Assembly: GCF_921293095.1 (NCBI RefSeq)
Contig: NC_060246.1
Span: forward strand, 135,408,198 to 135,472,197
Direction: 5' to 3'
Origin: Ischnura elegans
Taxonomy: Eukaryota > Arthropoda > Insecta > Odonata > Coenagrionidae
Length of the DNA stretch: 64,000 bases
This document shows positions 7,750-50,324 of the stretch, piece by piece (position 1 is the stretch's first letter; the number at the start of each line of letters is the position of its first letter). The translations under genes were made by a program, and so were the position numbers. The notes under the pieces were generated by a model, which was given only the letters and a program-made list of their open reading frames with translations, was not told the origin of the DNA and made no database searches.

Positions 7750-7752
7750 AAC

Positions 7753-9137: not shown

Positions 9138-9139
9138 CA

Positions 9140-12978: not shown

Positions 12979-12989
12979 GATGAACGTAA

Positions 12990-18526: not shown

Positions 18527-18534
18527 TGTATCTT

Positions 18535-19671: not shown

Positions 19672-19770
19672 TGATGTATCTTGTCTTCTTGATTATTTCC
19701 ACCTTTTGCCTTTGTTAACTCCATATTTACATGCTGGTGGAATTTTTCCTTCTCTTCCATGCTTATCTGT
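19672..19770. repeat. Direct repeat, copy 2
   Basis: This is the diverged partner of 18786-18895. The two copies flank the family C MITE at 19225-19495. Confidence 0.65.
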
Positions 19771-21010
19771 AATATAGATAGGTACCCTAGCTGATTATGC
19801 GTTCCGAAGCAAAAATAATTAGTGATTCTAACTTGATTGCGATAATAATAATATTTTTTCGCTTGAAATAAAAGCTACATTGAAATGAAATCGGGCACAC
19901 CCTTCTGGTATCCACTATGTGACTACTTTAATTACCGTGAAAATAAGAAATACCACTTTCTTAGTTTCATATATTCCCGCAGGTGGTATTACTCATGGAT
20001 ATCGAGATAATTCTAAAATGATTCTAGAGATGTCGCAGAAGACGTTGGAAAAGGACGCCATTGGCTGAAATTTCCGAGTGGGCATATTTGGAACTTCTTC
20101 CTCGCTCAGCGCGGAAGTCTAAATGCGTATTTTTAAAATGCTTGGAATGAGAGCGACAGTATCTTTCCGTTGTAGCATATTTATGGCTAAGTTTCAAGGA
20201 TTAGGTTTCTTAATTTATTTTTGGATTTATGCTTTCACGATCTTCTACCAGTCTAAGAGTCTATGAAATAAACCTTTCTATGCATACATAATATGATAAT
20301 ATTTATCATCTGAGGCAATTGGAATTACGAGCTAATCTATTCCATCCTTGTTCTTTAGGTTATGAATGTTTCTACATTGAATTATATAAAATTAGAAAGG
20401 CACTAAAGGCGCAGTTTTCCTTAAATAAAAGTCAACCTCTTAAAAGTCTTCTTTGTAGATTGCATCAATGAAAATCAAGGAATCATGCACATCAGCAAAA
20501 AATACTACCTAGTTATGAACTGGTCCATATATGAATGGCTGAAGTATTTTGGTTCTCAGAGAGACAACCAAAGTTCTTGAGTACCAGCCTAGGTTGTTAA
20601 ATATAGCAGTCCTTCTGTATCACAAATACCACTCCAGTTTTCGTTCATTGGCTTTCTTTGTAAATGGATGAAGGTATCATGAATTGCTGCTGGATACATC
20701 AGGAACAATCAATCTTTATGAGTAAGTTAAGTCAATTAGTGGGAATTCTGTGTACATTATGGAATCCAATTTCAACCTAATCATATAACTATTATTAGAT
20801 AATTATAGGTTATATTTTGTATTACAATAAAGTCTGTGAATGCACAGTCCCCAGAGAATGGATATTTTCAAAATGGAATTCAGATGTTTTTTAAAACTTC
20901 ATTCTTGACTTATATTATTAATGGAATACAGAATTCCACTCTCCACTTTCTTCCTCACTCAAGAATTACCTTATATTAAAGATTAGAGGAAATAGCTTGA
21001 GGGGATGGCT
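19771..21010. other. AT-rich stretch without recognisable features
   Basis: Nothing gene-like or element-like was found. Confidence 0.45.
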
Positions 21011-21018
21011 AGCAACAC

Positions 21019-21329
21019 CAAGGGCGGCAATGGTCTAGGGCGGGGCAAGCCAAGTTGTGACATTTTAGCATGGAAAAGGTAATGAAACCAACATTTTAAG
21101 AAAATTATAATAGCGCTTAATTAGTTTATGAGATTACATATTTCCTTGAAAAAGTAGTTTTATTTTAGTTAAGTACATATCTTATACTATCTAAGTTGAT
21201 ATATTAGCTAATACATATCATTTTTCGTGGTTTTAAAGAAAATTTGTTAAATACTTTCGTTTCAATTCAGTACTTTTGCAATTTTTACTTCTAGGGAGGG
21301 TCAGCTGCCCCTCGCTGGGTACACCCATA
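21019..21329. mobile_element. hAT-type MITE (family A), complete, perfect target duplication
   Basis: The element starts CAAGGGCGGCAATGG and ends CGCTGGGTACACCCATA. Exact 8-bp repeats AGCAACAC flank it at 21011-21018 and 21330-21337. The body is AT-rich and non-coding. Confidence 0.9.
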
Positions 21330-21470
21330 AGCAACACCTCACACACAAGCTGAAAGGCGGCTGAAGCCAAACTTGTCAATTTATGCTGCATTATTGATTT
21401 CAAAGCTGATTATTTCATTCAGCCTTGATCCTAAATTTTTTACTGTTTCATCTACATCTAAATACAACTC

Positions 21471-21729
21471 CAGTGGCGCCGACTCCATGGGGCTTGAGGG
21501 AGCCTGAGCCCCCTCAAAAGTTCATTATGGGTGTGAGAAAAAAATGTGTCAAGCTTGTTGATTTTCCCCGGAGTGTCCAGATATCAAGATTCGAGTTATC
21601 AGGGTTCTAATGTTGATCATAAGACTTCCAAAATGATTACAAAACTTAAAACCCAATACTAATAAAATTTCCCGGGGTAAGATCCCCGGTTTGGGCCCCC
21701 CCAATATTTTTTGTAAGTCGGCATCCCTG
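21471..21729. mobile_element. hAT-type MITE (family D), complete
   Basis: Ends are CAGTGGCGCCGACTCC and AGTCGGCATCCCTG. The flanks TACAACTC (21463-21470) and TACCACTC (21730-21737) match at 7 of 8 positions. The interior motif AGTGTCCAGATATC is shared with the second family D copy at 27447-27706. Confidence 0.87.
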
Positions 21730-22560
21730 TACCACTCCACAAGCCACCTCAATATGCAGTTGGCCACATTAGGTATTGAATGTGCAGTTTAGGTATCAGG
21801 ACATCAGATGTTGCTCCATGCGATAGCTTGTGTATTGTATATTAAGGCCTAATTTTTACTTGAATCCATTACTATCCATTAGAGAAATCAATTCCTGCAC
21901 CTCCTCCATCAAAATTTTATCTCTCTAATTTTATCATTTATGTTGGACCTGGAAGCATACTACAGATCTATAATCATGCCTGATGTGTCACCCTAAAAGG
22001 TTCTGTTTCTAATTATTCGTGCAAACCAATCCTTACGAAAAATGTGAAATTCTCTCTATTCACTCTCACCAGTTACTAACCTATTTCTTTGAATTTAATC
22101 TAGTTCACTGATGGCATATTTCTGAACTGTATCTCATTTACTTCCCACACTTTATAGGTGCAGCCTTACAAGATTATATTGGCACCTCTCACTCTCTCTC
22201 AACATTTTTGTCCAAGGACCTTCCCAAAACATTTGATAAATCTTAGCTTCTTCGGGACTCACCGAAAAATATTTCTTAAGTAGGATCCACATGATAGGTT
22301 TCAAGTTATCTTAATTTCTGGACTTCATCAAATGACTTTATGTGATGAACTACTGTGCATACATTAGTTCCATTCAAAAATGCAAATCTATGCAGTGACT
22401 CTTTTCATGTTTCCCACTAGAACTGGCTATTCACTGTTGGTTCTAAGTCATGGCTCCATTCTCTAGGCAAATGCTGAATGCCTATATATAAGTAATTGCC
22501 ACAATTTTTGCATGTATTCATTTATATTAATGGGTCAAAAATCCAACCATTTGGGCTTAA

Positions 22561-23628
22561 CCCTTTCCTGCCGATGCCTACAATTGGAAAACATTTTCCG
22601 TGGTGCGAGCAGCATGAGAATATTTCAAACCTCTCTGTACGGAGCTCTTTTTCGGTGTGGAGTTAACCTGGTATTTTCATCCCTCAGGTTTGGACCCAAC
22701 TCAACCCTTACTGTGGCCCTCTAACCCTTAGCACGAGTTTAGCAAACCTTTAACAAACTCTTAGCACGAATCCACTTTTAACTCATTGCGTTACTAGTGT
22801 TTTTTTTTTTTCAACCAAATATTGCATTTCATTTTCAGGAATTTACTCTTCCTCAAGAATTGCTAACATTTTTTTTAGGCATTGCGGAATTTTAAATGGG
22901 TTTCAAGCATAAATAATAACAAAGTTAGTAAATACAGGTAATAAGGCTATAAATCTGGAAGTATGTTATTATTAACGCTAAAACTTTGTTTTGAAATTGC
23001 TTTCATTCATTTCAAAGTATAAAAAAATTGTATTGCGCAACGAAATATATCATTAAAAAACTATTGAAAATAATACTACTTTGTGATGGATTCCTGCTGT
23101 GAGGATGATCATAAATGAGTAGGAAGATTGGGCTTAATTTCCGAGGAGTGGCTTAGCCAGGACAGCGGCTTAGCAAGGACAGTGGCGTAGCCAGGAATTT
23201 CATTCGGGTGGGGTCCAAAACCAGGGGGAAAATTAAAAAAAAAACTGGGCAGTACATAATGGGTTTTAAACTAATTTTAACACTTTTCATAATTGAAAAA
23301 ACTTAATTTGATTAAGAAACATTGTGTAAATTTAGGATTTTTCAATATTTTGTTTTCTTTTATGAAGGACAATAATTGTGTTTTTATATTTTGGGGGGTC
23401 CGGACCCCCTGGCTACGCCACTGTCTAAGGGCTCTCTAAGCTGGGTCTCAGGCTGGGCCTGAACGAATCTGACAATGGCTACCTCAGTGGTCATTTCCCA
23501 TCCCTCGCCTCAGCTAGAGCCGACGTCTGGTCATTTGTGTTGAAAAATCCGCAACAGCTATACCCGATGTCAGGTATTCTGTGAATGAAAATGCCTGTTG
23601 GCTCCATCCAACACTTGGCACAAAAGGG
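22561..23628. mobile_element. piggyBac-like non-autonomous element with TTAA target sites
   Basis: The element is bounded by TTAA at 22557-22560 and 23629-23632. It starts CCCTTTCCTGCCGATG and ends with the complement of CCCTTTTGTGCCAAG. The CCCTTT end and TTAA duplication are characteristic of the piggyBac superfamily. It is 1,068 bp long and has no transposase ORF, only a 70-codon chance frame at its left end. A family C hAT MITE (23180-23423) is inserted inside it, so the piggyBac-like copy is the older of the two. Confidence 0.75.
23180..23423. mobile_element. hAT-type MITE (family C) nested in the piggyBac-like element
   Basis: It has near-perfect 16-bp termini, CAGTGGCGTAGCCAGG and CCTGGCTACGCCACTG. 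The flanking octamers (AGCAAGGA and TCTAAGGG) agree poorly, so the target duplication has decayed or one flank has been rearranged. A duplicated CTTAGCCAGGACAG-like stretch just left of it suggests local rearrangement. Confidence 0.85.
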
Positions 23629-23859
23629 TTAAATTAGCCAAATGTGTTCATATTGGCCTAAATGAGTCACTAACTGAAATCCAAGGCCTTGCCTAACATT
23701 CTGTTTTTCCACTTGAATTTCAACGACCATCTTATTTACTGTCTGTTACTCATAGTTACCCTTAAGAGTGGAGAATCACCTAGGTCTCATCAGGAGCAGA
23801 TTGAGGAAAAGAAATGGAAAAGGGTGAGGAAAAATCGTAGCCACTCATTAACATCTCAA

Positions 23860-24090
23860 ATTATAAAATACCACCATATGGTCCAGGGTTTAAATCCTGG
23901 AGATGCAGAGAATTGTCAGAGATTACACAATCCATGCTTGAGTATTGTGTGTAGAATGATACATGTGTGATACTCAGTCCGCTGTATGGGATACTAAGCT
24001 GTGGTTCCCTTAGTAATTTTTATGAAGAATAGGCTATTGTTGGTGTGGGGAATCTCCTTAACCTTCCTTCCCTTCCCCTCCCCAATAAAG
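23860..24090 (+). repeat. Candidate tRNA-derived SINE
   Basis: A B-box-like AGGGTTTAAATCCTGG lies at 23886-23900. It is followed by about 180 bp of mixed sequence ending in a C-rich tract and AATAAAGGA. No clear A box or poly-A tail was found, so the call is weak. Confidence 0.3.
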
Positions 24091-25365
24091 GAACTGCTGT
24101 TGTACACAGCTGTTGTTACCTACTCCATATAACATAGGTACCTTTTAATTCCTTATGAAGGCTTTTGCAGAGTGAATGGGGTGACCATCTAAACATTTCA
24201 GTATATACTCCATGTATGATTAGCTTTAGCTGAACAAAAGTTTCTTAAATGTTACCTCTGCATGTCATGCAGGTCCAATTATTCTGGTTTGAATGAGCCC
24301 TTTCAATGCAGGCCATTGTATAGGTTTACAGAATGCCTGATTCTAACAGTTAGAATGATAAAATGGCCAACATAGATACGGCTCATTCATATCTGAAGAT
24401 ATTTACTGCAATGTTGGAGAAAATGTTTTTCACTTAAAGATGAACATATGCAGAGTACATCCCAACACTTTTTGATGGTCGTTTCGAATTAAAAGTTTTC
24501 CTTACCCCAGAAGAGAAACAGAATGTCTCCTTGGTTCTTCACATTTCATAACTTTATTATAGCCCAATGAAAGTTATAAAACCTCTATTAAATCAATCCT
24601 GAAAATGTATTTTGTAGTCATGTTAAGAATGATCAACCATTTTAATTATCCATGAAAATTCATGCCAAAGAATGTGTTAGGGTTTGTAGCAGGTGGGCTA
24701 ATCCTTCGTTCTTCATTTAGGTCTCCTATAGGAATAGGAGTGAATGGTTAATGCCAGAGCTGTGTACAGCATGGTAGACCTATTCCATACAGACCAGATG
24801 TTGATTGCATTAGTGCTCTTTTATCTATGTTTTACTGGTCCAACCCCATTCCCAGTTGAACAATTCACCACATTCTAATACCAATTAGTACATGCCTGGT
24901 ATTTGAGAAGGCACAGTGTCTTCAAGCTTATAGGGCTTATAATTCGATTGATTGATTCTAGCCTATCTATAGCCATCCACTCTGTTAAATTCTATGTAAG
25001 ATTTAACAGGCTCACATGGGACTGTTAAATTTTTCATAGAGTCTACTTTAGAGTAAAAAAGCCGGGAAGAGGAGGAGGGAGTCTGAAAATGAATTTTCAA
25101 CCAAAACATCAAAAACTTCTGCAAGCTGCATTGGTAATTAGTGATAACCAAAGTTCCTGTTATGTTTTAATGTAAAAGCTACAAGGAAAAGCCTGAGCAT
25201 CATGGATAGAGTGTTAGACACCTCACTGTTGAAGGAACGAAGTTGTAAAGCGAGGAGAGAAACTGTAGATATGTTGATAAAGAATATATTAGAAGATGTA
25301 AAAAGCAAACTTGATCATATCATAGTGGAGTATAAGCTGCTTATTGAATCATAAGGAGGAGGGTG
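24091..25365. other. AT-rich stretch without recognisable features
   Basis: No gene or element end was recognised. Confidence 0.45.
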
Positions 25366-25369
25366 GTAG

Positions 25370-25590
25370 CCAGGAATTTCATTGGGCAAGGGTCCAAAAG
25401 TAGGGGGGAAATTTTTGAGAAACTGGGTACTAAGTATTAGGTACTAAGTTTAAACTAATTTTAACACTCTACATAATTGAAAAAACTTCATTTGTTAAAG
25501 AAATATTTCGTAAATTCATGATTTTTCAATATTTTGTTTTCTTTAATGAAGAAAAATTATCAAGTCGTTATATTTTACGGGTTTGTACGG
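25370..25590. mobile_element. Truncated hAT-type MITE (family C)
   Basis: The sequence from GGTAGCCAGGAATTTCATT onward follows the copy at 23180-23423 closely, through AATTTTAACACT and ATTTTTCAATATTTTG. The outermost CAGTGGC and the right terminus are missing or too decayed to see. No target duplication is visible. Confidence 0.75.
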
Positions 25591-25973
25591 GCGAGAGTTA
25601 ATTGGAATTCAATGCCTTCATTTCTGAGAGAAATTAGAGCTAGAAATTAGTAATACATAATAGCCAGAAAATTATACTTAATTCACATTACAACCAAGTA
25701 TGTAGCTGTTGTAAAATCTGACTCCAGCAGTGAAGAAGCAAGATAAAAAAGTAATGAAACAGGTCTGTGCACTGCCTACTACAATTTCTAATGTAAAGGT
25801 ATCATCAGAAAACAATCAATGAAATGAGCATGAAAAATTCTGGGAGTGAATGGGTTAAAAATTAATATCCTGCGCCTTATCCTTGATGCTGCAGTTATTT
25901 TGATAAGAGTTTGCAGCAGATAAGTGGAAGCTAAGCCCAATGTTAAGCAACGAAAAAATTAACTGGAGGGGAT

Positions 25974-26019
25974 GAAGTATTTCTGTTACCGAGGATTTCC
26001 TTGGTGACAGAAATACTTC
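25974..26019. repeat. Hairpin: 21-bp arms, 4-base loop
   Basis: The left arm (25974-25994, starting GAAGTATTTCTGT) pairs with 25999-26019. On a plus-strand transcript the only two non-Watson-Crick positions would be G-U wobbles, so the RNA stem is fully paired, and the GGGG and CCCT beyond it extend the stem with a bulge. The loop ATTT is shorter than in typical microRNA precursors. It may be a small foldback element or a structured RNA. Confidence 0.6.
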
Positions 26020-26549
26020 CCTGAAACGGACTGCCCAGTGATAGATAAGATCACCTTCTCCAATTTTTAGAAGTTATGGAAAAGCTGAAGAATGGGAATC
26101 ACTGGGAATTCAAGAGTAGAAATTAGGAAACATATCATCAGAATGCATATCTGAACTGTTTCTTCTTGGCTGTGACGCATGAATGACTGCAGCTGCAAAT
26201 AGGCATGGAAATTTATACAATGTGAGTCTATAAAAAAAACAATGAAGATAAAATGGATAATCTTAGTGAGTAATGACAAGTAGATTACAATTAAAGAGAT
26301 CTTTTAAATATATATAAGAAGTCAACTTCTTTTAAAAACACGAAAAAGGCATAATAGGCATAGATGTGACAGTCAGATGAAGACGATCGTCAAAGAACAA
26401 GTGGACCAGAACAGAGGCAAAGGAAGGCCTTTGATGAGATTAATGGAACAGTTGATATATGAAATAAAAGAGAAGTAATATAGGTATTAGTGATTAGCTA
26501 ATTGGGGAATGGAGGGGAGAGGTACGTCAAAACAATACCAAAGTTGTTG

Positions 26550-26568
26550 AATGATGATGATGATGATG
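26550..26568. repeat. (GAT)n microsatellite
   Basis: Six tandem ATG/GAT triplets lie within a short plus-strand ORF that reads as an aspartate run and has no other coding support. Confidence 0.9.
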
Positions 26569-26946
26569 TGGTAAGTCCTGCATCAGCCAAACAAGGAAGC
26601 CCATCTCTTGAGATGTTTCTCATATGGATTGCTATGCTGGTCATTTTGCTGGACCTGAGAGAAATTAAATCTAACTGGATTTTTGACACTACTAGTGGCA
26701 GAGATTGATTGTTTAGGCATGAATCATGACTGCATTAGGTCCTTCAAAAAATATTATTATCTTTATTGTTACGCAATGATATTTCCGCATGCAATTAACC
26801 AATAATAATCAACTGATGAAAAAATACCAATGGATCCCTTGGAAATATGTTGTATGCATTAAAATCCATGGTTGCCAATGTGCTAACATGTATAATCTGA
26901 CTCTGCCAAGGAAACATATTTTTTGTAGTTTGGGCTGGTTTGATAG

Positions 26947-27225
26947 TTTTTGGAGGGGTTGATAGACAGCTAAAGTCATTTAAGAAGGGAAGTAAGGGTG
27001 GAGAAAAACCCCACATTGATATTTGTGTGCTCTTAATGAAATGGGGCAATGGTTTAATATTACATCCGGCGGAAGGAGTGTTGTACTTGAAGAACCCTTC
27101 ACAAAACTCCTGAAATAGGGATTGGGAAATTTCTATAATGTCTCTGCCATTGTTGGAATTTGAACCTAGGCCCATGGGATGGGAGGCCAACATTCCAGAC
27201 ACCACATCGAGCTGAAGCCAAAAAG
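26947..27225 (-). repeat. tRNA-derived SINE, minus strand
   Basis: On the minus strand a B box GGTTCAAATTCC (complement of 27155-27166) lies about 30 bp after an A-box-like stretch. About 200 bp of body follows, ending near 26947. Part of the body, including GGTGGAGAGAAACCC, GACAGCT and TGTGCTCTT-like blocks, recurs at about 47845-47942. The two copies share no coding function. A 147-codon minus-strand ORF (26795-27238) is produced by this SINE and is not called as a gene. Confidence 0.65.
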
Positions 27226-27446
27226 TTTGGGTAATCAATATTGGAAATTATGGGTGAAGTACAATCGGATGCTCTTCCACCATGTAACATCATAGAAGGC
27301 TCTTTGGGTTTCTATAAAACATTACCAGCAGTCTTAAAAAAATAAGTATAGAGAAAGGAAGGAAGCATTTTGTTTTTGTTTTTGTCCTATGCTTAAGCTT
27401 TAGCAAAGTGGAATAATTTATGAATTGTCCTATGTTGGCACCCCTT

Positions 27447-27706
27447 CAGTGGCGCCGACTCCATGGGGCCTGAGGGGGCCCGAGCCCCCCCAAAAATTCG
27501 TTATGGGTGTGAGGAAAAAATGTGTCAGGCTTGTCGATTTTCCCAGGAGTGTCCAGATATCGATATTCGAGTGATCAGGGTTCTAAAGTTGATCATATGA
27601 TTCTTCTAAAATGCTTAAAAAACTTAAAATTCACTATTTATAAAACGTAGCGGGGCAAGGTCCCTGGTTTGGGCCCCCCCAATATTTTTGAAAGTCGGCA
27701 CCCCTG
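27447..27706. mobile_element. hAT-type MITE (family D), complete
   Basis: Termini are CAGTGGCGCCGACTCC and AGTCGGCACCCCTG. The length (260 bp) and interior match the copy at 21471-21729. The flanks CACCCCTT and TCCCCTTT agree only partly, so the target duplication is uncertain. Confidence 0.85.
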
Positions 27707-27709
27707 TCC

Positions 27710-30330
27710 CCTTTTCATATTGAACTCCCTTATTTTATTTGGAGCAAGGCCTAATCCCTTTTATTCCACCCATTCATTATATTCTCCTCCTCTCCCATCC
27801 CTGCTCAGCCAACATCCTACACCCTAATATAATTCTAAATGTCCTCTCTCCGCACAGTACTTGCTCCAACTGTATCCTCTCTCTTCTCCAAATCTTCTCT
27901 AGAAGTTTCTTCTCCTCCCACACTCTTATGTAGGGCTCTTAATAATACCTCTTCTGCTCTTCCATCTCACCTTCCCCATCTCCCCCTCATCTCCAATGCC
28001 TTCGATTTTCTCTTACTCTATCTTATCAATGTATAAATTTCTACCTTGCTAAGATCAGAAAAATACACTATCCTTTTCTCCAAACTCATACTCAATTATC
28101 CTCTCATCAACTTTATCCCATTCATTAAACCCTCTTTGGCAATGCCATTATTTTCCTGGTATCCTTACTGCTGAAGTGCTGCATTAAATTTCTACTTGCA
28201 TTTAATCAAAATAGGCAAACTGTTCCACCTGTTTAAGTTTGTGCCCTTTCACTTCCTCTTTAATGCCTTACATTCCTTGCTTGAAATTCTTTACAAAAAT
28301 ATATTTCAGTCTTCTTGTAATTAATCTTCATGCTGCATACACTGTTTTCACCATTTATTTAACGTATTATACATTTTCTGATCACATTTTGTCCAATGGC
28401 AAATGAGCATCTGAGCGTATATGAGTCTCTTTGATTTAAACATCTATCTTTCCACTTTAAATTCTACTTTTAACTCTTCACTCACTTCTCTTCCCATCTC
28501 GTCCAGAGTTATGTTAAATAGCAAGAGTTAATTAAATAGTTATGTTGCATTCCTTGGCCAATGCTTGCTCACTCACAGTCTCCATTGGCCACCCTAACTA
28601 CTCAGATTACAAATGAGCCCTCTGTCAACACAATCAGCACTTATTTTCCACTTGAATGCCCATTAAATTTACCCAGTCCAACTGCACGAAATGTTATTTT
28701 TTTCAATATTCAGTAAGTAAGTTTACATATCCTAGTTACGTTATAGCTTACAATTATCTCCCTACTCGGATCATCCTTATGCTGCTATTTCATTATGAAC
28801 TGTCTTTCTCTTCCAGTGATTTAATTGATCAGCTGTATCATTGGTAGGCCTACCACAGGATTCCAGTCCAATTATTTCTATTCTTGATTTCCTTAATTTT
28901 ACCCTCTACATCTTCATATACTCATCTAATTTTTCCTCCTTCTGACTGCCGGTAGCGAGGACATAACCAGGAAAGATACTCCTAGGGATGGTGTCCACTT
29001 GGATGGAGTACACTTCTCAAACCTACCCATATCTTGCAGATTTTAAGTGGGGGGTTTGAGGCCCTTGACTAGCTTTTTACAGCCTTAGTTAAAAAATAAA
29101 AACAAGATCTATTCTCTACACCAAGCTTAAAATTTCTGAGCCCAGGAAAAATATTTCAGCCATTTTGGTTACATTCAATTTATACAGCTACCATCAATGC
29201 CTTAATTGTTTTCCATTGATGGTTGGGTGGATCCCTGTAGATATCAGGTTTTGGGGACAGTCATGGACCCCTGTGAATATACCCACAAATAAGTAAGTAT
29301 TGGTTATTAGAATAATCTTCAATAGAAATAGTTTAAATAGGCTTATAACTCTTATTCATTTTTTTATTTGAATATGTTTTGAAATTACAGCATAAAACTA
29401 TTAAGTTGTCAAAGGATTTTTGGGGAGTGACTATTCTCTCCCTTCTCCTTGGGTCTGCTCCTTATTAAAGATGCTCAAGTAGCATTTAAGCCCTTAAGGC
29501 TTTATTTAATTAAGGCCCTTTTTTAATGAACATTACTGGATCTAGGGTGAAAGGGTGGTGAGGGAGTTTCAGGCTCAATTAATAGCCCACTATCTAAGCT
29601 TTAACTGAAGTTGGGTAACAGTGGGACCTAATGGACACACTTGTTGGTGTGGAGATTTTCAGACACTAAAGAAGCTTTTTCTCCCCTGCAGCACCTATTT
29701 TTTATTCAGATGTTGAATAGTCGGATTTCACGGGATATAACTCAGGTGACTTGAAATAACATGACTAGAGGCTAGTTTGACAAAACAGTGTTATTTAATA
29801 ATTTTTCTCATCAATTTGATTTATCTGTATGAGTTGAACTTCTGTTGTAAGGGGCTATAACTAATGGCAAGAAATAAGAATGCAATTTTTTAATGCTTCA
29901 TATGGCCTATACACTACAATAGAACGAGTTTTGTTTCACCACTAAGCTACTTTGGCAAGAAGAAAGAAAACTGACCAATTTGCATACAGGCATTTTTAAT
30001 TGCCTTGTACACCAAAATGGGAACTCATGCTTTGTGTGTTAGAATGTTACAATAGGTCTTACCCAGATTTTGGGGAATATTTAGCTATCGTGAATTGCAA
30101 AAAAAGTAATAAGAAGAAATTCCTCAGGAGTTTGCACCTGGAAAATATTGTCAGGTATCCAGTTCAATCATTTGCACACCTCTGGCTTTTTGAACAACTT
30201 GCCCCAGTAGGGTACCTATGTGCCAGAATACTCCAACTTTGTACCAACTGAGCCCCATTCCTCGAAGGTAGTGAGCCATTCTCTCTCCATCCCTGAAGAA
30301 AATCCCTAGGGGAACCACTCAACTATGTGG
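27710..30330. other. AT-rich stretch without recognisable features
   Basis: The plus strand from 27720 to 28900 is C/T-rich, with pyrimidine runs but no microsatellite and no coding frame. The remainder is AT-rich. Nothing was recognised. Confidence 0.4.
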
Positions 30331-30340
30331 AGCTTGAATG

Positions 30341-30540
30341 TACAGTCGGATTCAAAAGTATTGCAGCAAATGGAGCGGCATCACTTTCGCCGCAGTTTTG
30401 AAATCGAGTTTCAGTATTTTCTATTGCACCAGTGGGAGGGAAATTTGAAAAACATTCCCACCTCCCGTAATATTTTTATAACAACATCATTAAAGGGAAA
30501 TGCATGCGGGATATGTGCAGCGTAAATATAAATAACCACA
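30341..30540 (+). mobile_element. Possible single end of a Tc1/mariner-type element
   Basis: ACAGTCGGATTCAAAAGTAT preceded by a TA target dinucleotide resembles Tc1-like terminal inverted repeats. No inverted partner was found within about 2 kb and no transposase was seen. A 66-codon frame starting here is chance. This could be a truncated copy or a coincidence. Confidence 0.35.
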
Positions 30541-30798
30541 TAAATTGTGCAGCTCATGCCACATAATAAATCTACGTCCAGAGCGACACTTTACTTCTTT
30601 AAGTTGGCCGATCCGTTGAAGTATGTTGTCTTACAATTAACGCTGAATCTTTTCGATCAGCGATAGCAAGCAAAACATACACATGAAATATCCGCCGCAA
30701 TATCACAGCAAATAATGCCTCTGAGTGTTAAAATTCAGTTTGATTTAGTGACACCAGAAGACAAAGCTCGTAATGAATCCACGTAAGAGTCAACGAGT

Positions 30799-30872
30799 GA
30801 GATGGACTAGTGGTTAAGGAGAAGACTTACTACGGTAGTAATCCATAGTAGGTGCTTCGAACCTCTCTGCAA
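30799..30872 (+). pseudogene. tRNA-Ser-like relic or SINE head
   Basis: A box-like GACTAGTGGTTAAGG (about 30804) and B box-like GTGCTTCGAACC (about 30851) are spaced as in a type II tRNA such as tRNA-Ser. The acceptor and T-stems do not pair, so it is not a working tRNA. It is followed by AATAATTTTTTT, a possible Pol III stop or A/T-rich tail. Confidence 0.5.
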
Positions 30873-31000
30873 TAATTTTTTTGTTACATGTTATGGCAGT
30901 AACAATTTTTAAAATCCACTTTAACGCATGTTAACTTAATTAAACTCTCCTGTTGTTGTAAAATTTTTAATGAAGAAAATTATCTTTTTGCTTTCCGCAG

Positions 31001-31115
31001 ATATCATTTCCTATCTTTGGATTCATATTTGGACCCACCGTTTACCTCTTACCAATACGTAGCTCCGTAGGCATTTATAATCGTAGCCAAGTGGGTCCAT
31101 ACGGTGCGCTGTAAC
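31001..31115 (+). CDS. Candidate short terminal exon, unknown protein
   Basis: A good plus-strand acceptor (TTTTGCTTTCCGCAG, AG at about 30999-31000) is followed by a frame open for 37 codons to TAA. It begins ISFPIFGFIFGPTVYLL and is hydrophobic at first. No start codon, partner exon or poly-A signal was found, and the family is not recognised. It could be chance: AT-rich DNA often gives a pyrimidine-AG before a short open frame. Confidence 0.15.
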
Positions 31116-31640
31116 TTCATGAGAATCCTGCGAAGGATCAAGTCCGAAGAAATCAATCTTTTTTTTCATTTTTTAAATATAATAGGTATATGAAATGAAT
31201 GTTATTTATTTTATCAACATAATAATGGTGGCGACTAAGAAAAATTCAATACAGAATTTTTTTAAGGAGTAAAATATTCTAAATTTAGACTCTGAGGTGA
31301 TCCACACATGCGTAAATCCTCCCATCACCTGAATTAAATTTAGGAGCAGTAACGCAGGGAAATAACAAATATCCAAAACGCTTACTCCAGGGAAAGCTAC
31401 TATATCTAAATTGATTAGCACTTTCATAGTGATACACTCATCTTATAAACAGCGAAGAAAAGAACCGACCGAAAGGTAATCTAAAAAATATGACATTAAC
31501 TTTGTCACAATTAATTTTCATAGCGTTATAAACAAGAGTGCTAAAATCGGGTGTAAATTTCAGGACGTGGGCATGGTCATAGGAACAGAGAGTTGACTTA
31601 TGAAGGATATAAGCGACAGCGAAGTTTTCCCTCCAGGATT

Positions 31641-31935
31641 CTACAAGTCCCATCCAGTGTTGATGAGATGCTGCAGTTCAGAGGTGGCGTCAGTGATGAA
31701 AAGGCGGCTGGCTGCAGGGCGCTTGCCGCGTATACCAACTGCCCTATATGTTTTCCGCAAAGTTACATGGAGACTCACAGCGATGAGCCTTCTCCACAAA
31801 CCTCGCGTGATAGCAGCATAGCCCATCGCTGATTGGGGGACGGGAGTTCGCACGGGAGCGGCTGCGGGAAATGTCTCGCCCCTCTCGCCGGTGATGTATT
31901 ACACTTGTGACCATGTGAGATTGCTCTTGCTGCAC
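31641..31935 (-). pseudogene. Gypsy-type LTR retrotransposon relic: gag knuckle and protease
   Basis: Two overlapping minus-strand frames together resemble the gag-pol junction of insect Ty3/gypsy elements. The first (31935 to 31744) contains LCCYHARFVEKAHRCESPCNF, the Cys/His segment that ends gag in these elements, after an Arg/Ser-rich stretch. The second (31853 to 31641) reads ASRLFITDATSELQHLINTG, equivalent to the start of the aspartic protease. The catalytic motif, usually DTGA, has become NTGW, so the enzyme would be dead, and a frameshift and stops break the frame. No LTRs, reverse transcriptase or integrase were seen nearby. Confidence 0.75.
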
Positions 31936-32046
31936 TAAAATATATTATACATATAATACTGGATCTTACTGCATCCCGTTTTTTGGGGTAGCTACCTTAC
32001 CCTACCAAGAAGTGACAATATATAAATATAAATAATAACTTACCAT

Positions 32047-32445: not shown

Positions 32446-32999
32446 CATCTTATATGTATAAATATTCGAGGCCGATATCCCAAAGCCCCTTCCCCTCCAT
32501 CTTACTGTCTAACAGTGTTATATATTTAAAAAAATACAATGCAAATTAGCTATGCAATTTATGCTCTTATTTTCATGGTTGAACTGATCTGGCAGATAGC
32601 TGCTGAGTTCTCAGCCAGCCACATTGCCAGAAAGGTATGAAGAGTTTGGGTGTTATGTGGCTTGCCTGCACTGATACTCTTTTGTCGTCGCTTTGGAGGT
32701 ATCAGACAATGATACACTCGTTACAAACTTTTCAGCTACTTAGCGATGAAATAATCTTTCAGCATTATAACAATTAATTGATTACTGGAATACATAATGA
32801 AATGTAACAACATAATTTGAAAACTGGAGTGCTGGAGGGCTTGTGGTCTTCTCAGTAGATGCGTTGCAGGTAGTCACCTCCAGGGGAGAAATATTGGGGA
32901 TGTTTATGCCCCCAATGGTTATAAAAAATTAAAACATACATTATTAAAATCAATTCATACTGATCAAGCATTACCAGTACTATTACACTTATTCACAAA

Positions 33000-34700
33000 A
33001 TTATATTCATCCATTGTTAAAGCCCTACCTAACTAAATACCTCAACATGCACGCCTGAATTGATCTCATGCCATAATATGGACTCATTGTCACGATGACC
33101 AAAGGCCTGCCTAGTCTGAGTTATTTATAATCGACAGCATTATATAATTCATATATAACCCTTATTCTCCTGTTCCAAATCTAAACTGTAGCCGAAACTG
33201 TACATGTTCTTAATCTTTTTTGTGTAACAATGTCCTATTATCATTACAAAAAAATGGATTAACAATACCAACAAATCGCCTATTTGCATACAATTGAATG
33301 AAATAAAATATAGTTATATACCCAATATATGCCCAATGTAATTGCACCTTGATGGATGCTTTCTGAAAATGTTCACTTTATTTAGGTTAATTGTCAACTG
33401 ACGAATGTAAAATTTTGTCAATACCTTAACGACATTCCATTTTACTGGATTTGTACCAGCACTTTAATTTTCACAAAAATTACATGTAAAATGTTTTATT
33501 TTATGTCACCAATCACAAAGATACTAAAATATTTTATTTTTACAACATCTTCTTTGTAACATAGTCAAAGGTATATAGAAAATAGTTTTATTGTCTTTAC
33601 CAGTACAAAGTAGTAGGGAGAAATTACATGCACACCATTTAATAGCATTTAAAATTATTAAATTAATAATTTCAACTGCTATTAAAATAATATCATTAAA
33701 AATCGAGAAAAAATATCAACGAGAATAATACAAATCGACCTTAGCAATGGGCACAATTTATTCTGGTCAAGGTGTTACTTAATTATATTTTCATGGTCGC
33801 AAATACGAAGACCTGCCTATTCTGAGTCATTTCTTAACAACTGTCAGATGCAATATTAAATCCCTACTCTCCTCCCCAAGTCTAAACTATAGCTGGCAAA
33901 AATACAAGCAATAGTTACAAAAATAAAAGAAGGCTCTGTACAATATTATCGAAAAACCACTAAAACAGTAATGCAAATAGTACTTAGCACTGGAATAAAG
34001 AACACAGCAACATATAATATATTATATTCAATGATTTCACATATTTAAATTCAAATCACAAATGCACCAACTGTTTTAGCCAGGGATAAGTCATATTTGC
34101 ATGTTATCAAATAACATTAACAATTTGCAACATATGCGGAAAAACCATAAACTTTGAAAGAAAAAATATTCCATCACATTCCCAATAAGGGTGCAATATT
34201 GTAAGCATTTGACGTAAATTAATGACTTATCCCTGTTACACCCCCTCCCCACGATGAGGGAACAGTTTGGATTTGAGGGGGGCATGCACTACACTACGAC
34301 CAAAATTAATAAGAATAAAAAAAACTACACAAAAAAGAATTAGCAATTCATAAAAATCAAGCACTACTACTACTAATATCATTCATTCATTCATAAACCA
34401 CATTCCATTCACTCATTCATCAAATCACATTCCACCCTCTCATTCATAAAATCACATTCCATTCACTCATTCATAAAATCACATTCATCCATTCATACAG
34501 CCCTGCCTACCTAAATACTTCTTTATACGCCTGTATTAATTAAACGCCTAAATACGGAATCGTGGCCACGATATATATATATTCGTATACGAAGACCTGC
34601 CTAATCTGAGTTATTTCTACTCGACGGTAGGACGCAATATAAAATCCCTACTCTCCTGCCGCAAATCCTAACTATAGCTGGAAAAAAATACATGCATAAA
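33000..34700. repeat. Degenerate three-copy tandem repeat, 0.7-0.8 kb units
   Basis: The motif CTGCCTANTCTGAGT followed by a CCCTNCTCTCCTNCC block and a CTAAACTATAGC-like block occurs near 33108, 33813 and 34595. Flanking parts also align loosely, for example CCTACCTAAATAC at about 33025 and 34510. The units lie just downstream (minus strand) of the exon ladder at 34.8-40.8 kb and might be part of its 3' untranslated region. This is not a coding array. Confidence 0.55.
34376..34500. repeat. CATT-based minisatellite
   Basis: CATTCATTCATTCATAAACC is followed by imperfect 20-40-bp units built from CACTCATTCATAAAATCACA. It is a simple-sequence derived array with no coding potential. Confidence 0.85.
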
Positions 34701-34850
34701 TAAAAAATATACAAACACCCTGTACAATAATTGCAACAAAAATGCAAAAAAAACAACTATCTTCAGGCGTGGTGTCTTCTTTCTTCCTATCTTCATTCTT
34801 CCTTTCCTCACGATAAATCCTCAAGTCTCTAGTTGTCGTCGCAGTAACCT

Positions 34851-34921
34851 TCAGATGTCCATTTCATGGACCTCCACAGTTGTCTCCAAAAGCAATCGCT
34901 GTCGTTGTCCACAAGCATGAC
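34851..34921 (-). CDS. Candidate terminal exon of the minus-strand exon ladder
   Basis: On the minus strand an acceptor TATTACCACAG precedes the segment. Joined in the phase left by the exon at 37576-37674, it reads 23 residues (HACGQRQRLLLETTVEVHEM and two more) to a TGA at 34851. In another phase the frame is also open to a TAG at 34823-34825, so the phase is not certain. Downstream sequence shares AAGGAAGAATGAAGAT with the tandem units at 38.7-39.4 kb. No poly-A signal is close. The protein is not recognised. Confidence 0.25.
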
Positions 34922-34929
34922 CTGTGGTA

Positions 34930-36020
34930 ATATAACAAAAAATTCTCAAAATTCAACGAAGGGAAGACCTAAAAAGTTAACTTTCAGCTCAGAAATATAA
35001 TTTCGAGGATGATGTTGAGAAAATATTAACTTTGTAATGGTCAAGAAATTTTTAAAATAAAAAAAATGCAAGAGCGGGTAATTCCAAATTATTTGACGCT
35101 TATCTCATCGGCAATATTTCAATGTATTTTCATTATTCTTTAAACATTTTAAAGATACGATCGGGCAATATTAAAAAATTTCCCGGAAATCATTACGGTG
35201 AGCTGAGTCTGTTATATATATATATGTACCTTTTTTTTACGACTTACTTGGACTTCATGGGTATTACTAAACATTGATTCCACAAAAAATTCTCACATAC
35301 TTAAATACTCACATACAAGGAAAATACATATATGTACTATTATGTGAATTGGAAAACAATAATGAAATTTTAAAAATCAATATGCTGAAATTATTTAAAA
35401 AGACGAAACCAGAAGTTACAAATATGGCATCCATATTAAGGACACCACACCTATCCAGGAGGATGTATTTTAATAATTTCTTGTAGGATGTAATTTTATA
35501 ATTAAGTCTTCTGATACGAAAGATATAATATATGTTAATTCTCAAGATCATGCAAAGAGCAGGTCAAAGTATCACTTCAGAAAAAAAACAGCCGAAAAAA
35601 ATGAAAATTATATACTGATTTTTCCGACACCATTGGATTAATAAATATTTAATAGCAAGGAAAAACGCGTTACCAGAAATTAAGTACCCAAAATTAAACG
35701 CAAAAGAGTATCAATCATTGTGACATTATTGTTGCGACTTTTTTTTTAATATGTCACTTATACTCATTAAATTCACGGAAAAATTCAGAAAGGTAGAAAA
35801 TCCGGAATCTCATGTTTCCCTCAGGTAGGGTCTCCGAGGAAGTAAGTACTTGAGCGCGCATGACCATTGCTGGGTTGTCAAAAGCAAGGCTAATATGGAA
35901 ACCTCGACCTCCACATTACAATGAGAAAATTAAAGAGAAAAGTAAATACTTACGATAGATTCACGAAAATCCCCATAACTGTCATTCGTTCCAATTATTA
36001 AATTTAATGGAAATAAAGTA
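34930..36020. other. AT-rich stretch, probable intron or intergenic
   Basis: No confident feature was seen. A strong minus-strand donor-like ATCGTAAGTATT at about 35950 ends a 14-codon open segment with no acceptor in front of it. Confidence 0.4.
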
Positions 36021-36027
36021 ATGCCCC

Positions 36028-37249
36028 GTTCACACTACGTCCTTTTTACGCCGGTTAGCCCCGACCATGGTTACAAAACGAGGTGTGAACGCAAGTTCCC
36101 GTTAACCGTGGTTGGGATTCTGACCACCGTTTTCCGACCATGGTTGGCGGTAGTTCATGCGTGTGTGAACGCAAGTTGGTTAAAAGCTGGTTAGAAAAAG
36201 AAGAAGGCGAAGCAGCAACGAAGATTCATTCCGTAATGTGTTGTATAGTATGAGATTTTAAACCTGATTTAAGTTATGCGATATACTTTATAGTTCGTAG
36301 TGAATTAGCTATTAGCTCGTATTGTATTGTTACGGACAGATTGAATAATCTATATTAATATTTTGCTAGAATTAAGTAAAATGTGCGAAACTACCATAAT
36401 AAAAATCCGAAGGTCACAATGATTTTAATGTTTTGGTAAGAGTTCTTTGTCCCAGTTTGAAAAAGATCACTTATGTTCATCCTTGAACAAAAGTTCTTCC
36501 CATATCAATATAAAGTTTCAGGCTAACGGCTAGTCAGATGTAACGATAGAAAATAAATTTAGAAACGTCGGGTGATACCACATATCGCAAAAATTACCAC
36601 GTTCTCTCTCTTATTTCATAAGTTAAATTTCAACAATCGTCCCATTTCTGCAAGTTATTCGTCCACATTTGAAGAAGAGGTAAAAGAGTTTTAATTTACG
36701 GTATAGCATCAGATTGGATCATGTCCTTTGCCAAAGTCAGAAAACAATAATAGCTAAGAATGTAATGCAGCGAAAAGTGTATCTCCATCCCAAATCACAA
36801 GTGTCTCAAATTGAGGCTCAAGTCTCAAGATTAGGTCCTCGATTTTCTTCACCTACATCAATGATTTGTCGACACATCCGAATCAAGGGCAAGTAGTAGT
36901 ATATGTTGTTGATATCACCCTAATTATCACTAATATTCGTATTAAATAGAGCAATAGAAGAATGCAAGCCACACTATGGATGAAATGATTAGTTGGACGA
37001 ACACATTTGAATTACCTTCTACGTAGCAAGGTACAATGATTGTCGACGCTGGAATGCAATTTTTAATTCATAAGCAGCTCATAATATGCACATATGTTTA
37101 AATCATTGCAATTAACACAAGAACTTTTCCCTGCACATTCTATATTTCCTTCCAACAAGTTATTCGCTCTTGTCAATTCATTTTTCATTTGGAATTAATT
37201 TACCACTCATCAGATGTCGCCAGGGTCTAACCATGGTAAGTGTGAACGC
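36028..37249. mobile_element. Candidate non-autonomous DNA transposon with repeated subterminal motifs
   Basis: The block starts CGTTCACAC (36028-36036) and ends with its complement GTGTGAACGCG (from 37240). Between these, GTGTGAACGC recurs at 36083 and 36163 and ACCATGGTTA-like motifs at about 36064, 36136 and 37229. Such clusters of subterminal repeats are typical of transposase-binding regions. No transposase ORF and no clear target duplication were found. The superfamily is not assigned. Confidence 0.45.
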
Positions 37250-37575
37250 GCGTTGGTTCTGACGTCATCTTACGCTGGTTAAGATATATGAAAACAAACG
37301 CTATCGTCATCGTCAACCAATCAATGCCTTGATATTCAGCGCGGGATTTAAGTATTGTGAGTGTTGCAAAAAAAGCACGAGATCATAATTTTTGGTGCGG
37401 TTTAATTAAAAATTTTCGTGTTGCAAAAGTGAAAATATTTATTTATTTTATCACACATTCATTACTTTTATCATCGAGGATCCTGAATATAAAAATTATA
37501 GTGTACCTATGTGATCACTAAATAATGGTTCTGAACTGAACTCAAAACTTGGAAGAGGAATGAATGAAATCTTAC

Positions 37576-37674
37576 CGTCTGCCTGCGTCAACGAGCTGGA
37601 TTCTTTCAATCTTTTTGCACGTGCTTTCATCGAGGCCTCGAGTAGGCAACTCACACAAGACGTTCCAACGAACT
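37576..37674 (-). CDS. Candidate internal exon of the minus-strand exon ladder
   Basis: The 99-bp segment has a strong acceptor (TTTTCCATTGCAG) and donor (ACGGTAAGA) on the minus strand and is open in the phase set by the exon at 38540-38660. It encodes FVGTSCVSCLLEASMKARAK, then a Lys/Ser-rich part ending TQAD. Both its ends are phase 1, so skipping it would keep the frame. Family unknown. Both splice sites and the open frame support a real exon, but there is no evidence of expression. Confidence 0.45.
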
Positions 37675-37679
37675 CTGCA

Positions 37680-38535
37680 ATGGAAAAAAACGAACACTCA
37701 TGAAGAGACAAATCAATGTCGTAGAAAACCGGCTTCATGGCCGAATCAATCAATAAATTTTCTTATGGCACATAGACGTTGGAGAGTGGATAGGCTCACC
37801 TTTTAATTAGATTAAAAGAACTTCGAGTGAAAAATAACATTTCCCGTATTGCAGGGGAAATTAAAATAATATTCAATTAACTAATAACACTTATTAAAAT
37901 AAAAAATTAATTCCAATTAAATGGAACTATATATTTGTTTAAATAGGAAAAATTAAGGATTGATTTTGAAGTGGGTAACCTTTCACAGGATAAAAATAGT
38001 TAAATAATTCTGATTCAGAATGAAAAATCAAAATAAAATCTGTAATGAATTAACAAATAATTAGAAACTAATTACAAATAAAAGTTATTTGCACTGATTT
38101 ATAATGCAAAAATATTTTGCGGAAACTGTTAAGGGAGGTGATATTTTGACTTGAAAACACTTGTAAAGAAAATACGTTAATAGGTGATTATGAGTCATCC
38201 AGAAAAATGTTGGCACAAAAAAAATATTTTGCCCATTGCAATATATTACATAAGTTTTCAATTCAATTCGAAGTTAATAGGTCAATGAAATATCACTTCC
38301 AGTTACTAAGTACCAAGTACAATTATCAAACTAAGTAGTCAATGACTAAATTGAGGAGTATATAAAGTTAATTTGTTTATTTTGATTGCATTATGGGCAA
38401 ATTAGAAGTTCAGAATAAGCATGAGCACAATTGAGTTCCGTTAAGGAATGCAAAATTGAACATTCTCAAGCAAATCCTTAATTTAAAAATTTGTATTGGA
38501 AAAATGAACCAAATTTGAATGAATATTATGAAATC
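37680..38535. other. AT-rich probable intron
   Basis: No ORF or element was recognised. It separates the candidate exons at 37576-37674 and 38540-38660. Confidence 0.4.
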
Positions 38536-38539
38536 ATAC

Positions 38540-38660
38540 CGCTCCTTATCTGCTGCAACTCATGTAGAGCCGCAAGAAGCCGGCTCGGTAATGTGCACCA
38601 TCCAATCTTCTTCCAAGTGTCTTCTTTCTCCTTATCATCATGTCCAGCGATGAATCGCGC
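38540..38660 (-). CDS. Candidate exon of the minus-strand ladder (most 3' tandem unit)
   Basis: The acceptor CGCTCTCTCCTTAG and donor AGCGGTATGA bound a 121-bp segment open in phase 0. It reads RFIAGHDDKEKEDTWKKIGW and continues with LLAALHELQQIRS, so it is charged and then leucine-rich. It is the diverged first member of a tandem series whose other members start at 39020, 39379, 39768 and 40798; its IAG matches the IAG of those copies. Its end phase fits the exon at 37576-37674. Family unknown. Confidence 0.45.
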
Positions 38661-38899
38661 CTAAGGAGAGAGCGGGTTAGTGCATACATAAATAAGTAAC
38701 CCTTCCGAGGATTTGCACCACTCCAAAGCAGCACACAAGAACGTAACCATGGCATCGATAGGAAACCACACATTTCCTACCTAGCCACAGCCACATTCCT
38801 GCATGACGCGTTGGAATCCGTAATGCAAAACCACGGCACAAAAAACTAAAATAACGCACGGAAAAAACGCCTAGCCTTACGCAAATTTTTATTCATTGG

Positions 38900-39020
38900 C
38901 CAGAAGGGCCCAAAGCTAAGATGTCGTCTTCTTCTGGTCCCGCGATGCCATCCTCTTCTGTCTTCTCTTCTTCCGATGAATCTTCATTCTTCCTTTCACA
39001 TCCAGCGATGGCTTGCGGAC
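38900..39020 (-). CDS. Candidate alternative last exon, acidic (tandem copy 2)
   Basis: The minus-strand acceptor CGCTCTCTCCCTAG lies at 39021-39022. In the frame containing QAIAG the segment reads AIAGCERKNEDSSEEEKTEE and continues about 20 residues, ending GPSGQ then TGA near 38900. An AATAAA-like sequence (TGAATAAAAA) overlaps the stop. Another frame is also open (basic, starting VRKPSLD) to a TAG. The same structure recurs at 39379, so these may be alternative terminal exons or relics of duplication. Confidence 0.35.
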
Positions 39021-39254
39021 CTAGGGAGAGAGCGGGTTAGTGCATACACAAATAAATAACCCTTCCGAGGATTTGCACCACTCCAAAGCAGCACACAAGA
39101 ACGTGACAATGGCATCGATAGGAAATCATAAATTTCCTACCTAGCCACAGCCACATTCCCGCATGATGCGATGGAATCCGTAATGCAAAACCACGGCACA
39201 AAAAACTACAACTAACGCGCGCAAAAAAACGCCTAGCTTTACGCAAATTTATGT

Positions 39255-39379
39255 TCACTGGCCAGAAGGGCCCAAAGCTAAGATGTCGTCTTCTGGTCCC
39301 GCGATGCCATCCTCTTCTGTCTTCTCTTCTTCCGATGAATCTTCATTCTTCCTTTCACACCCAGCGATGGCTTGCGGAC
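39255..39379 (-). CDS. Candidate alternative last exon, acidic (tandem copy 3)
   Basis: Same layout as the copy at 38900-39020: acceptor CTCTCTCCCTAG at 39380-39381, then QAIAGCERKNEDSSEEEKTE in the acidic frame and a TGA after GPSGQ. It differs by a 3-base length change that keeps the frame. It lacks AATAAA at its 3' end, having AACATAAA there. Confidence 0.35.
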
Positions 39380-39662
39380 CTAGGGAGAGAGCGGGTTAGT
39401 GCATACACAAATAAATAACCCTTCCGAGGATTTGCACCACTCCAAAGTAGCACACAAGAACGTGACAATGGCATCGATAGGAAATCATAAATTTCCTACC
39501 TAGCCACAGCCTCATTCCTGCCTGACGCAATGGAATCCGTAATGCAAAACCACGGCACAAAAAACTAAAACTAACGCACGGAAAAAACGCCTAGCCTTAC
39601 GCAAATTTATGTTCATTGGCCAGAAGGGCCCAAAACTAAGCCGCTAATATCGCACACGTCTT

Positions 39663-39768
39663 CTTACGATGCTCCTCTTCTTTCTTCTGTGAATACTTGC
39701 GTCTTCAATCTTCTCTTCTTCGTGCAGTCTTCACTCTTACTTCCTTGAAGTCCAGCGATGGCTTGAAT
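39663..39768 (-). CDS. Candidate exon of the ladder (tandem copy 4, basic)
   Basis: The minus-strand acceptor TTACCTCTTCACAG is followed by IQAIAGLQGSKSEDCTKKRR in phase 0, then a basic tail to a TAA near 39664. It is clearly related to the other copies by QAIAG and the GAAGA-rich body, but more diverged. Confidence 0.3.
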
Positions 39769-40059
39769 CTGTGAAGAGGTAAGATTAGTGCATGCACAAA
39801 CAAATAAATAAATAACAATAACATGCAAGCCCTAACGCAACGCAACGGAAAAATACTCGCAGCACACGAAAATATAAATAACCACACGCAGAAAAATATC
39901 ACACGAAGTCACACGATAGATTAAAAAACACACCCAATCGGATTCTTGCCGTTCTTCGAGCTCAATTTGATGTCTTCAGTCTTCATGGCTGGAAGGGAAA
40001 GGATTACAGACATGTTACAATTAAGTACAAAAAAAACACTCAGTTCAGGCGAGGGATTT

Positions 40060-40215
40060 CCAATGTCCACTCATTCCCCAAACACACATGCATTATCTTC
40101 ACTCTTCATTCTTCGAGGCCCCCAGCGATGTCTTCAATCTTCGGGGCCTCAGCTTCGTCTTGTTTCTTCATTCTTCACTCCTACAATAAATGGTGTTAGT
40201 ACAAAACCCACCCAA
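40060..40215 (-). pseudogene. Degenerate ladder unit
   Basis: The minus-strand acceptor-like TTTATTGTAG at about 40180 is followed after a stop by MKKQDEAEAPKIEDIAGGLE and a TGA. The IEDIAGG part aligns with the QAIAG motif of the neighbouring copies. The frame is interrupted right after the acceptor, so this unit is probably not used as coding sequence. Confidence 0.25.
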
Positions 40216-40674
40216 ATACCTTAAAAAACTACACACACAAAAATACCCACATTTATTTCCTGCCTAAGAATGCATTCTTTGTCTACCAGGACCGGTCTCA
40301 TTCGTAGTAAATAACTTTTAAGTGCACTTTCTGGTACCTTAGTTTCAGCGGTGTTTCGAAACCTTTTTGAACTTGCTCCTTCGAGCCGTTACCTTTCGTG
40401 TATTGTATTTACCTAGAGGTCGTGCTTCGATAATAGAGTGTGAATTCACTTTCCACCAGGAGTCTCTCATGACTCCAGGTGTGTGGTTCAGGTCGGCCCT
40501 AATTTACCATTTCATGTTCAAGATAACCTGATGAAAAGCTGATACGGCAATGACCAGCGTCCGAGGAAAACTGCACTCTTCCCAGCCTTCAACGTAAGTC
40601 GATGAATGGTGTTCTAATTCTTCAATATTCATTCTGAAATTGAAAAATCAAAAATGTGGATTAAAATTCGAGTC

Positions 40675-40798
40675 AAATCTCTCCGAATAACATAAAAGGA
40701 ATTAGCATTGGATCCCGAGTGGCCATCGTCTTCTTCTTTTCTTCATTCTTCCTGCTCCACCCTTCATTCTTCCCATCACGTCCGGGGATGGCTTGCAC
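40675..40798 (-). CDS. Candidate exon of the ladder (most 5' tandem copy)
   Basis: The minus-strand acceptor TTGGTCTCTCCTTAG is followed in phase 0 by VQAIPGRDGKNEGWSRKNEE, then KKKTMATRDPMLIPF and a TGA near 40670. Its MATRD corresponds to MASRD in an alternative frame of the copies at 39020 and 39379. This is the copy farthest from the 3' end on the minus strand that I could detect. Family unknown. Confidence 0.3.
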
Positions 40799-50137: not shown

Positions 50138-50324
50138 ATGATGTCTCCATGCTTCTGGGTTTCACCGCGTGGATTTTCTTTGCGACGACAGTTTCTCCGG
50201 TATTCCAACCGGCGTCTTCAGGTCGAAAGACCTGATCGACCTGAAGACGCCGGTGGGAATACCGGAGAAACTGTCGTCGCAAAGAAAATCCACGCGGTGA
50301 AACCCAGAAGCATGGAGACGTCAT
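50138..50324. repeat. Near-perfect inverted repeat: 88-bp arms, 11-base centre
   Basis: The left arm 50138-50225 is the reverse complement of 50237-50324 with about two mismatches. The arms contain TTTCACCGCGTGGATTTTCT and CAGTTTCTCCGGTATTCC. The same peptide-like string (GETVVAKKIHAVKPRSMET) therefore appears in frames on both strands. The GC content is higher than the surroundings. It could be a foldback mobile element or a locus giving a long hairpin RNA. No host gene is evident around it. Confidence 0.92.

Follow-up and report, generated by a model that had tools for sequence, protein, structure and literature searches.

The stretch of DNA considered here, referred to as the window, comprises 64,000 nucleotides (nt) of the Ischnura elegans (Odonata, Coenagrionidae) contig NC_060246.1, positions 135,408,198 to 135,472,197 of assembly GCF_921293095.1. 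Its minus strand carries a ladder of duplicated exon-like units which is local to this locus and consists of five related units whose acceptors, given as the first base past the AG, lie at 38660, 39020, 39379, 39768 and 40798, exactly where a preliminary description of the sequence had placed them. All five units, or rungs, keep the acceptor and a GAAGA-rich body after the AG as that description had claimed, which supports the anatomy of a spliced locus. Splice sites were scored with approximate matrices that are not specific to this species; the ranks of the acceptors refer to the 6950 AGs of the window. The ladder and the candidate exons downstream of it are composed as follows.

40508..40798, minus strand: rung E0; acceptor in the top 0.3% with CTAAC at -41, GAAGA-rich body (VQAIPGRDGKNEG...), weak best donor at 40507 (top 5.3%)
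40393..40633, minus strand: possible extra rung; acceptor in the top 2.9%, no CTAAY, two GAAGA in 110 nt, candidate donors at 40412 and 40392 (the latter top 2%)
40088..40180, minus strand: possible extra rung; weak acceptor (top 11%) after TACTAAC, CTAAC at -19, seven GAAGA in 110 nt, donor 40087 in the top 5.8%
39934..39988, minus strand: possible extra rung; acceptor in the top 0.7%, GAAGACTGAAGACATC body, no CTAAY, three GAAGA in 110 nt, donor 39933 in the top 5%
39500..39768, minus strand: rung E1 with 3' tail; acceptor in the top 1.9%, CTAAT, candidate donor GGCTAG/GTAGGA at 39499 (top 3%)
39141..39379, minus strand: rung E2; acceptor and donor the same as in copy E2'
38781..39020, minus strand: rung E2'; body near-identical to E2, AATAAA at 38893
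38540..38660, minus strand: rung E3; body about one third unlike E2, with some 93-94% identity ahead of the acceptor, donor at 38539 (top 6%)
38606..39640, minus strand: three-copy tandem duplication of period 359, holding the candidate introns 39499-39380, 39140-39021 and 38780-38661
37576..37674, minus strand: candidate internal exon; best splice-site pair among the sites examined, without GAAGA
34680..34921, minus strand: candidate downstream exon; acceptor in the top 1.2%, GAAGAATGAAGATAGGAAGAAAGAAGA at 34801-34775, the end at 34680 being arbitrary

The rungs fall into a recent and an older set. Tandem Repeats Finder reports a repeat at 38660-39640 with a period of 359, 2.7 copies and 93% matches, which self-comparison widens to a three-copy tandem of about 359 bp on the minus strand (38606-39640) spanning the units at 38660, 39020 and 39379. 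Identity within the tandem is about 89-92% or more. The units at 39768 and 40798 are older relatives which align with the tandem at 72-76% identity along 100-109 nt (75-76% along 100 nt for E0), and their similarity to the tandem extends past the acceptor in the upstream direction for 39 and 11 nt, respectively. Both levels of identity agree with the sequence homology expected of homologous exons (PMC3228551). The QAIAG-type start described earlier holds for 39768, 39379 and 39020, while 40798 begins with QAIPG and 38660 with RFIAG. With at most one mismatch allowed, the 64 kb contain 13 copies of the motif GAAGAATGAAGA where 0.75 would be expected, all of them on the minus strand and between 34.7 and 40.8 kb; elsewhere in the window there are neither further matches at this threshold nor unit-like self-matches. 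The motif CAAGCCATCGCTGG, allowing at most three mismatches, has eight matches (three exact) against 2.73 expected, a weaker excess than it looks since eight were reached in one of 100 shuffles. A DNA pattern compared with viral contigs and another compared with bacterial and archaeal genome contigs gave no exact matches, which carries little weight as these are non-animal collections, and a literature search by features, made without the species name, found no description of the ladder locus among the titles and abstract openings returned.

The order of elements within the rungs resembles that of spliced exons. Among the AGs of the window the five main acceptors fall within the best 0.3 to 2.5%; acceptor 37674 reaches the top 0.3% and acceptor 34921 the top 1.2%, and donor 37575 the top 1% of 6222 GTs. 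The GGCTAG/GTAGGA donors at 39499, 39140 and 38780 score in the top 3% and the donor at 40392 in the top 2%, and the remaining donors score lower. All three candidate introns starting from GGCTAG donors are exactly 120 nt long; the candidate exons measure 291 (E0), 269 (E1), 239 (E2), 240 (E2') and 121 nt (E3), lengths which depend on uncertain donors. Six rungs, the five main ones and 40180, have a branch-site-like CTAAY placed 12-50 nt before the AG; by comparison, 27 of the window's 348 strong acceptor-like sites have one. Between 38.5 and 40.9 kb the minus strand contains 43 copies of the motif GAAGA and the plus strand a single one. Thirty-six of the 43 copies follow one of 12 strong acceptors within 110 nt, where circular shifts give a mean of 22.6 (P 0.004), and 11 precede one within the same distance; at least two GAAGA within 110 nt follow seven of the 12 strong ladder acceptors compared with seven of 326 elsewhere. 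Over the 45 nt before the acceptor, E1 shares 30 positions with E2 and E2', and the opening 35 nt of exon E0 match the other units at 24-28 positions where the largest random value is 22, the only segment of E0 clearly above random pairs.

Divergence among the recent copies is uneven. From exon tail to acceptor E2' and E3 differ at 15 of 219 aligned positions, compared with 17 of 53 at the exon start (Fisher P 5e-6), and for E2 and E3 the counts are 13 of 219 (tandem copies A and C) and 18 of 53 (P 4e-7). The break sits at the acceptor. The bodies of E2 and E2' differ at one of 102 sites plus a 3-nt indel by recount (four of 98 by a script with a misplaced gap), a difference which gives P 0.18 and 0.026 when tested against each of the two intron comparisons. 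The 120-nt introns themselves differ at one site between copies A and B, at nine between A and C and at eight between B and C. Such a mosaic can arise by repeated exchange or conversion. Diversifying selection acting on the exon bodies could also produce it, which is a bolder reading than these data prove.

A tentative interpretation, and the one favoured here, is that the ladder may form part of a lineage-specific spliced long non-coding RNA (lncRNA) gene on the minus strand, which would begin near 40.8 kb or farther upstream and continue to 34.7 kb or beyond. We infer that such a gene would be transcribed and spliced and that its RNA might bind proteins or have some function. Each rung would act as a cassette composed of a branch-site-like CTAAY, a pyrimidine tract, the AG and a purine-rich enhancer body. 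The GAAGA motif is linked to Tra2, and the GAAGA bodies may recruit SR/Tra2-type splicing activators. The bound activators would then define the exons in spite of the mediocre donors, a mechanism proposed because SR proteins are reported to bind GAAGAA as an enhancer in human exons (PMC10760453). The cassette has been copied several times, probably by unequal exchange or local duplication, the latest product being the 359-bp unit with its 120-nt candidate intron. The absence of a long coding frame, as expected of an lncRNA, is what is found: open reading frames starting with ATG reach at most 47 codons in three spliced models, the proportion of synonymous differences (pS) does not consistently exceed that of non-synonymous differences (pN), and there is no Pfam match in the ladder.

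A number of observations weigh against this interpretation. With the exception of 37575 the donors are mediocre, the acceptor of the extra rung 40180 is weak, and rungs 40633, 40180 and 39988 were chosen by eye ahead of scoring. Of the eight rungs, 40633 and 39988 lack the CTAAY motif, as do the candidate exons 37674 and 34921, and the three tandem copies, which have it in common by recent descent, make up three of the six rungs that possess it. The nhmmer E-values for the unit matches are circular, as the profile was built from the units themselves. Strong acceptor-like sites in the region show no strand bias (12 on the minus and 13 on the plus strand), and the 45 nt before the acceptor of E0 match the other units at 20-25 positions, which is within the random range given that random pairs reach 29. 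Open frames are somewhat longer than in shuffles, if marginally so (about 0.01 to 0.06), and the start of the proposed gene was not found in the window.

Several of these points are shared by the alternative that the ladder is non-transcribed or unspliced repeat DNA, either a local tandem array in decay or part of a dispersed repeat family, whose splice-like sequence would be due to descent or chance. In addition to the acceptor-like sites on the opposite strand and the random-range similarity upstream of E0, near-identity is confined to part of the ladder and the remainder is weak, and the window holds other dispersed repeats. Human novel intergenic autonomous exons are described as largely unconserved and similarly frequent in random sequence (PMC10760453). 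What this alternative does not readily accommodate is that CTAAY, pyrimidine tract, AG and GAAGA occur in the same order in units that have diverged by 24-28%, that GAAGA is strand-specific, and that within the 64 kb neither the GAAGAATGAAGA motif (up to one mismatch) nor unit-like self-matches extend beyond the locus. Repeat DNA, which the preliminary description had itself allowed for, is somewhat less likely than the lncRNA reading; the other possibility it had allowed for, a lineage-specific non-coding RNA, fits better than the protein-coding one that it preferred.

That preferred possibility, in which tandemly duplicated alternative last exons would swap short charged C-terminal tails, is improbable. 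Rungs E0, E1, E2 and E3 all have 33 open codons in phase 0 (E2' being omitted as a near copy, and the frame of E2 being non-homologous), which has a chance of 0.009 in dinucleotide shuffles and of 0.04-0.06 in higher-order chains. The claim that 37576-37674 and 34851-34921 fit in phase is borne out, since the chain from 38660 through 37674 to 34921 is open for 96 codons up to a stop at 34851 (a position counted by eye), and diversifying selection could produce bodies of E2 and E3 that differ by one third next to pre-acceptor sequence that differs by 6-7%. The AG and the common ATC codon, however, are 9 nt apart in 38660, 39768 and 40798 and 11 nt apart in 39379 and 39020. The acceptor phase therefore differs between rungs, and a single upstream donor would put E2 in a different frame. 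Judging from the frames, the change of coding ends from acidic to basic that had been described would be no more than E2 read in this other frame. Conserved splice sites combined with a conserved reading frame, as set out for homologous exons in PMC3228551, are not found, as acceptors are present in five of five units while the phase is unequal and in-frame stops occur. The suggested dN/dS-type comparison between units, made in the homologous frame (17-18 codons) for all six pairings among E0, E1, E2 and E3, gives a pS of 0.20-0.70 and a pN of 0.32-0.42, with pS exceeding pN in just three of the six pairs and hence no clear constraint. Rung 40180 is closed within nine codons in every frame.

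In three spliced models the longest frame without a stop spans 109, 100 and 96 codons, and the longest one beginning with ATG 47, 46 and 41 codons. Two copies had been said to end in their own stops, one of them with AATAAA; stops are found in four (40798, 39768, 39379 and 39020), and in a 700-nt scan for AATAAA or ATTAAA only 39020 has the signal at its own stop (38893, overlapping the stop). In the same scan the signal follows E3 at 38381, exon 37674 at 37447 and 37443 (relevant if donor 37575 is unused), and E0 and 40633 at a shared 40257, and none follows E1. No upstream coding exons were found, and Pfam comparisons in all frames over 29-44 kb (minus) and 32-47 kb (plus) gave no domain in the ladder, although short exons are able to escape such scans. 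Overall the Pfam scans covered three frames of the minus strand from 1 to 64000, save a few bases at the joints, and three frames of the plus strand at 1-15000 and 32001-62000; the plus strand from 17001 to 32000 was compared only to PDB sequences and gave none at 0.01. With the phase unshared, the frames only marginally open and no domain in any frame, a C-terminal tail switch is not supported at this locus. That the ladder provides alternative 3' ends of an upstream leucine-rich-repeat (LRR) gene, spliced past the last exon of that gene, is highly improbable, for although the strand is the same and the phase of the LRR exon would read E2 and E2' as an open tail of 40-41 codons, the gap amounts to 14 kb, E0, E1 and E3 are shut within 6-9 codons in that phase, and the LRR frame has its own stop at 54871.

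A structured RNA was also considered and set aside. The folds of six units are unremarkable (z-scores of -0.04, 0.53, 0.13, 1.75, -0.10 and -1.71), with only 40080-40180 slightly apart (z -1.71, equalled in 11 of 200 shuffles), and Rfam at gathering scores returned two tRNA matches for the window and no known RNA family in the ladder. The long non-coding RNA hsr-omega carries repeats and gathers RNA-binding proteins, and GGCTAGGTAGG recalls its repeat motif; it occurs about once per tandem unit by eye, and an hsr-omega-like repeat RNA was likewise set aside.

Downstream of the ladder lies a second module that is unlike the ladder unit and is present in three diverged copies.

32986..34729, minus strand: second module, copies at 34729-34464, 33945-33803 and 33192-32986

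Acceptor-like CAG/CTATAGTT starts are found at 34677 and 33892, and the third copy is without an aligned AG (weak site at 33185). About 14 kb upstream of the ladder the minus strand shows a match to LRR_8 (E 5.6e-6, 26.5 bits, just below the Pfam cut-off of 27), the sole Pfam match in the scans. It falls in two apparent spliced exons, judged by eye, at 56893-56726 and 55043-54871 (minus strand), which end in ...EEWEDLSDV and a stop at 54871 and resemble LRRC20. The tRNA matches, at 7.7 and 9.1 kb, are located in two related segments (7498-7758 and 8870-9146) that are 80% identical; one is a tRNA-Tyr and the anticodon call of the second is unclear. Repeated GCGTTCACAC and ACCATGGTTA-like stretches on the minus strand at 36000-36250 and 37230-37330 have by eye the look of a small mobile element. 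Self-inverted repeats at 50138-50324 (95%) and 61003-61138 (82%) are perhaps hairpin-type mobile elements, and a dispersed repeat pair at 21468-21733 and 27444-27710 is 86% identical and contains a G run and a GGGCCCCCTCAGGCCCC-like stretch.

The proposed lncRNA gene can be set beside three known systems. Like the autonomous intergenic exons and lineage-specific lncRNAs with GAAGAA (PMC10760453), the ladder consists of short enhancer-rich exon-like units outside known genes with weak donors and no lasting frame; unlike them, its putative exon cassette is tandemly duplicated in one locus. Tandem homologous exons, which are mutually exclusive or carry multiple poly(A) sites and for which criteria have been given with Dscam and muscle myosin heavy chain as examples (PMC3228551), resemble it in being homologous units in a row with their own acceptors, whereas in the ladder the frame is not conserved, candidate exon lengths seem to vary, donors are mediocre and no host protein was found. 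With PNCTR, a repeat-bearing lncRNA that gathers RNA-binding proteins (PMC6224606), it shares a short motif repeated on one strand, here GAAGA, which belongs to a type recognised by RNA-binding proteins, although its copies number dozens and not hundreds.

The kind of locus is in itself ordinary. A bolder and improbable extension would regard it as a young gene whose acceptor-plus-enhancer cassette multiplies locally, with exon bodies that change more quickly than what precedes the acceptor, providing interchangeable short charged tails or RNA modules subject to a Tra2/SR-type choice. If the ladder is spliced as an lncRNA, it would represent a clean case of non-coding exon multiplication, in which acceptor and enhancer are copied and kept while frame and donor drift, and its recent and older copies would serve as a small time series on which parts of an exon are constrained.

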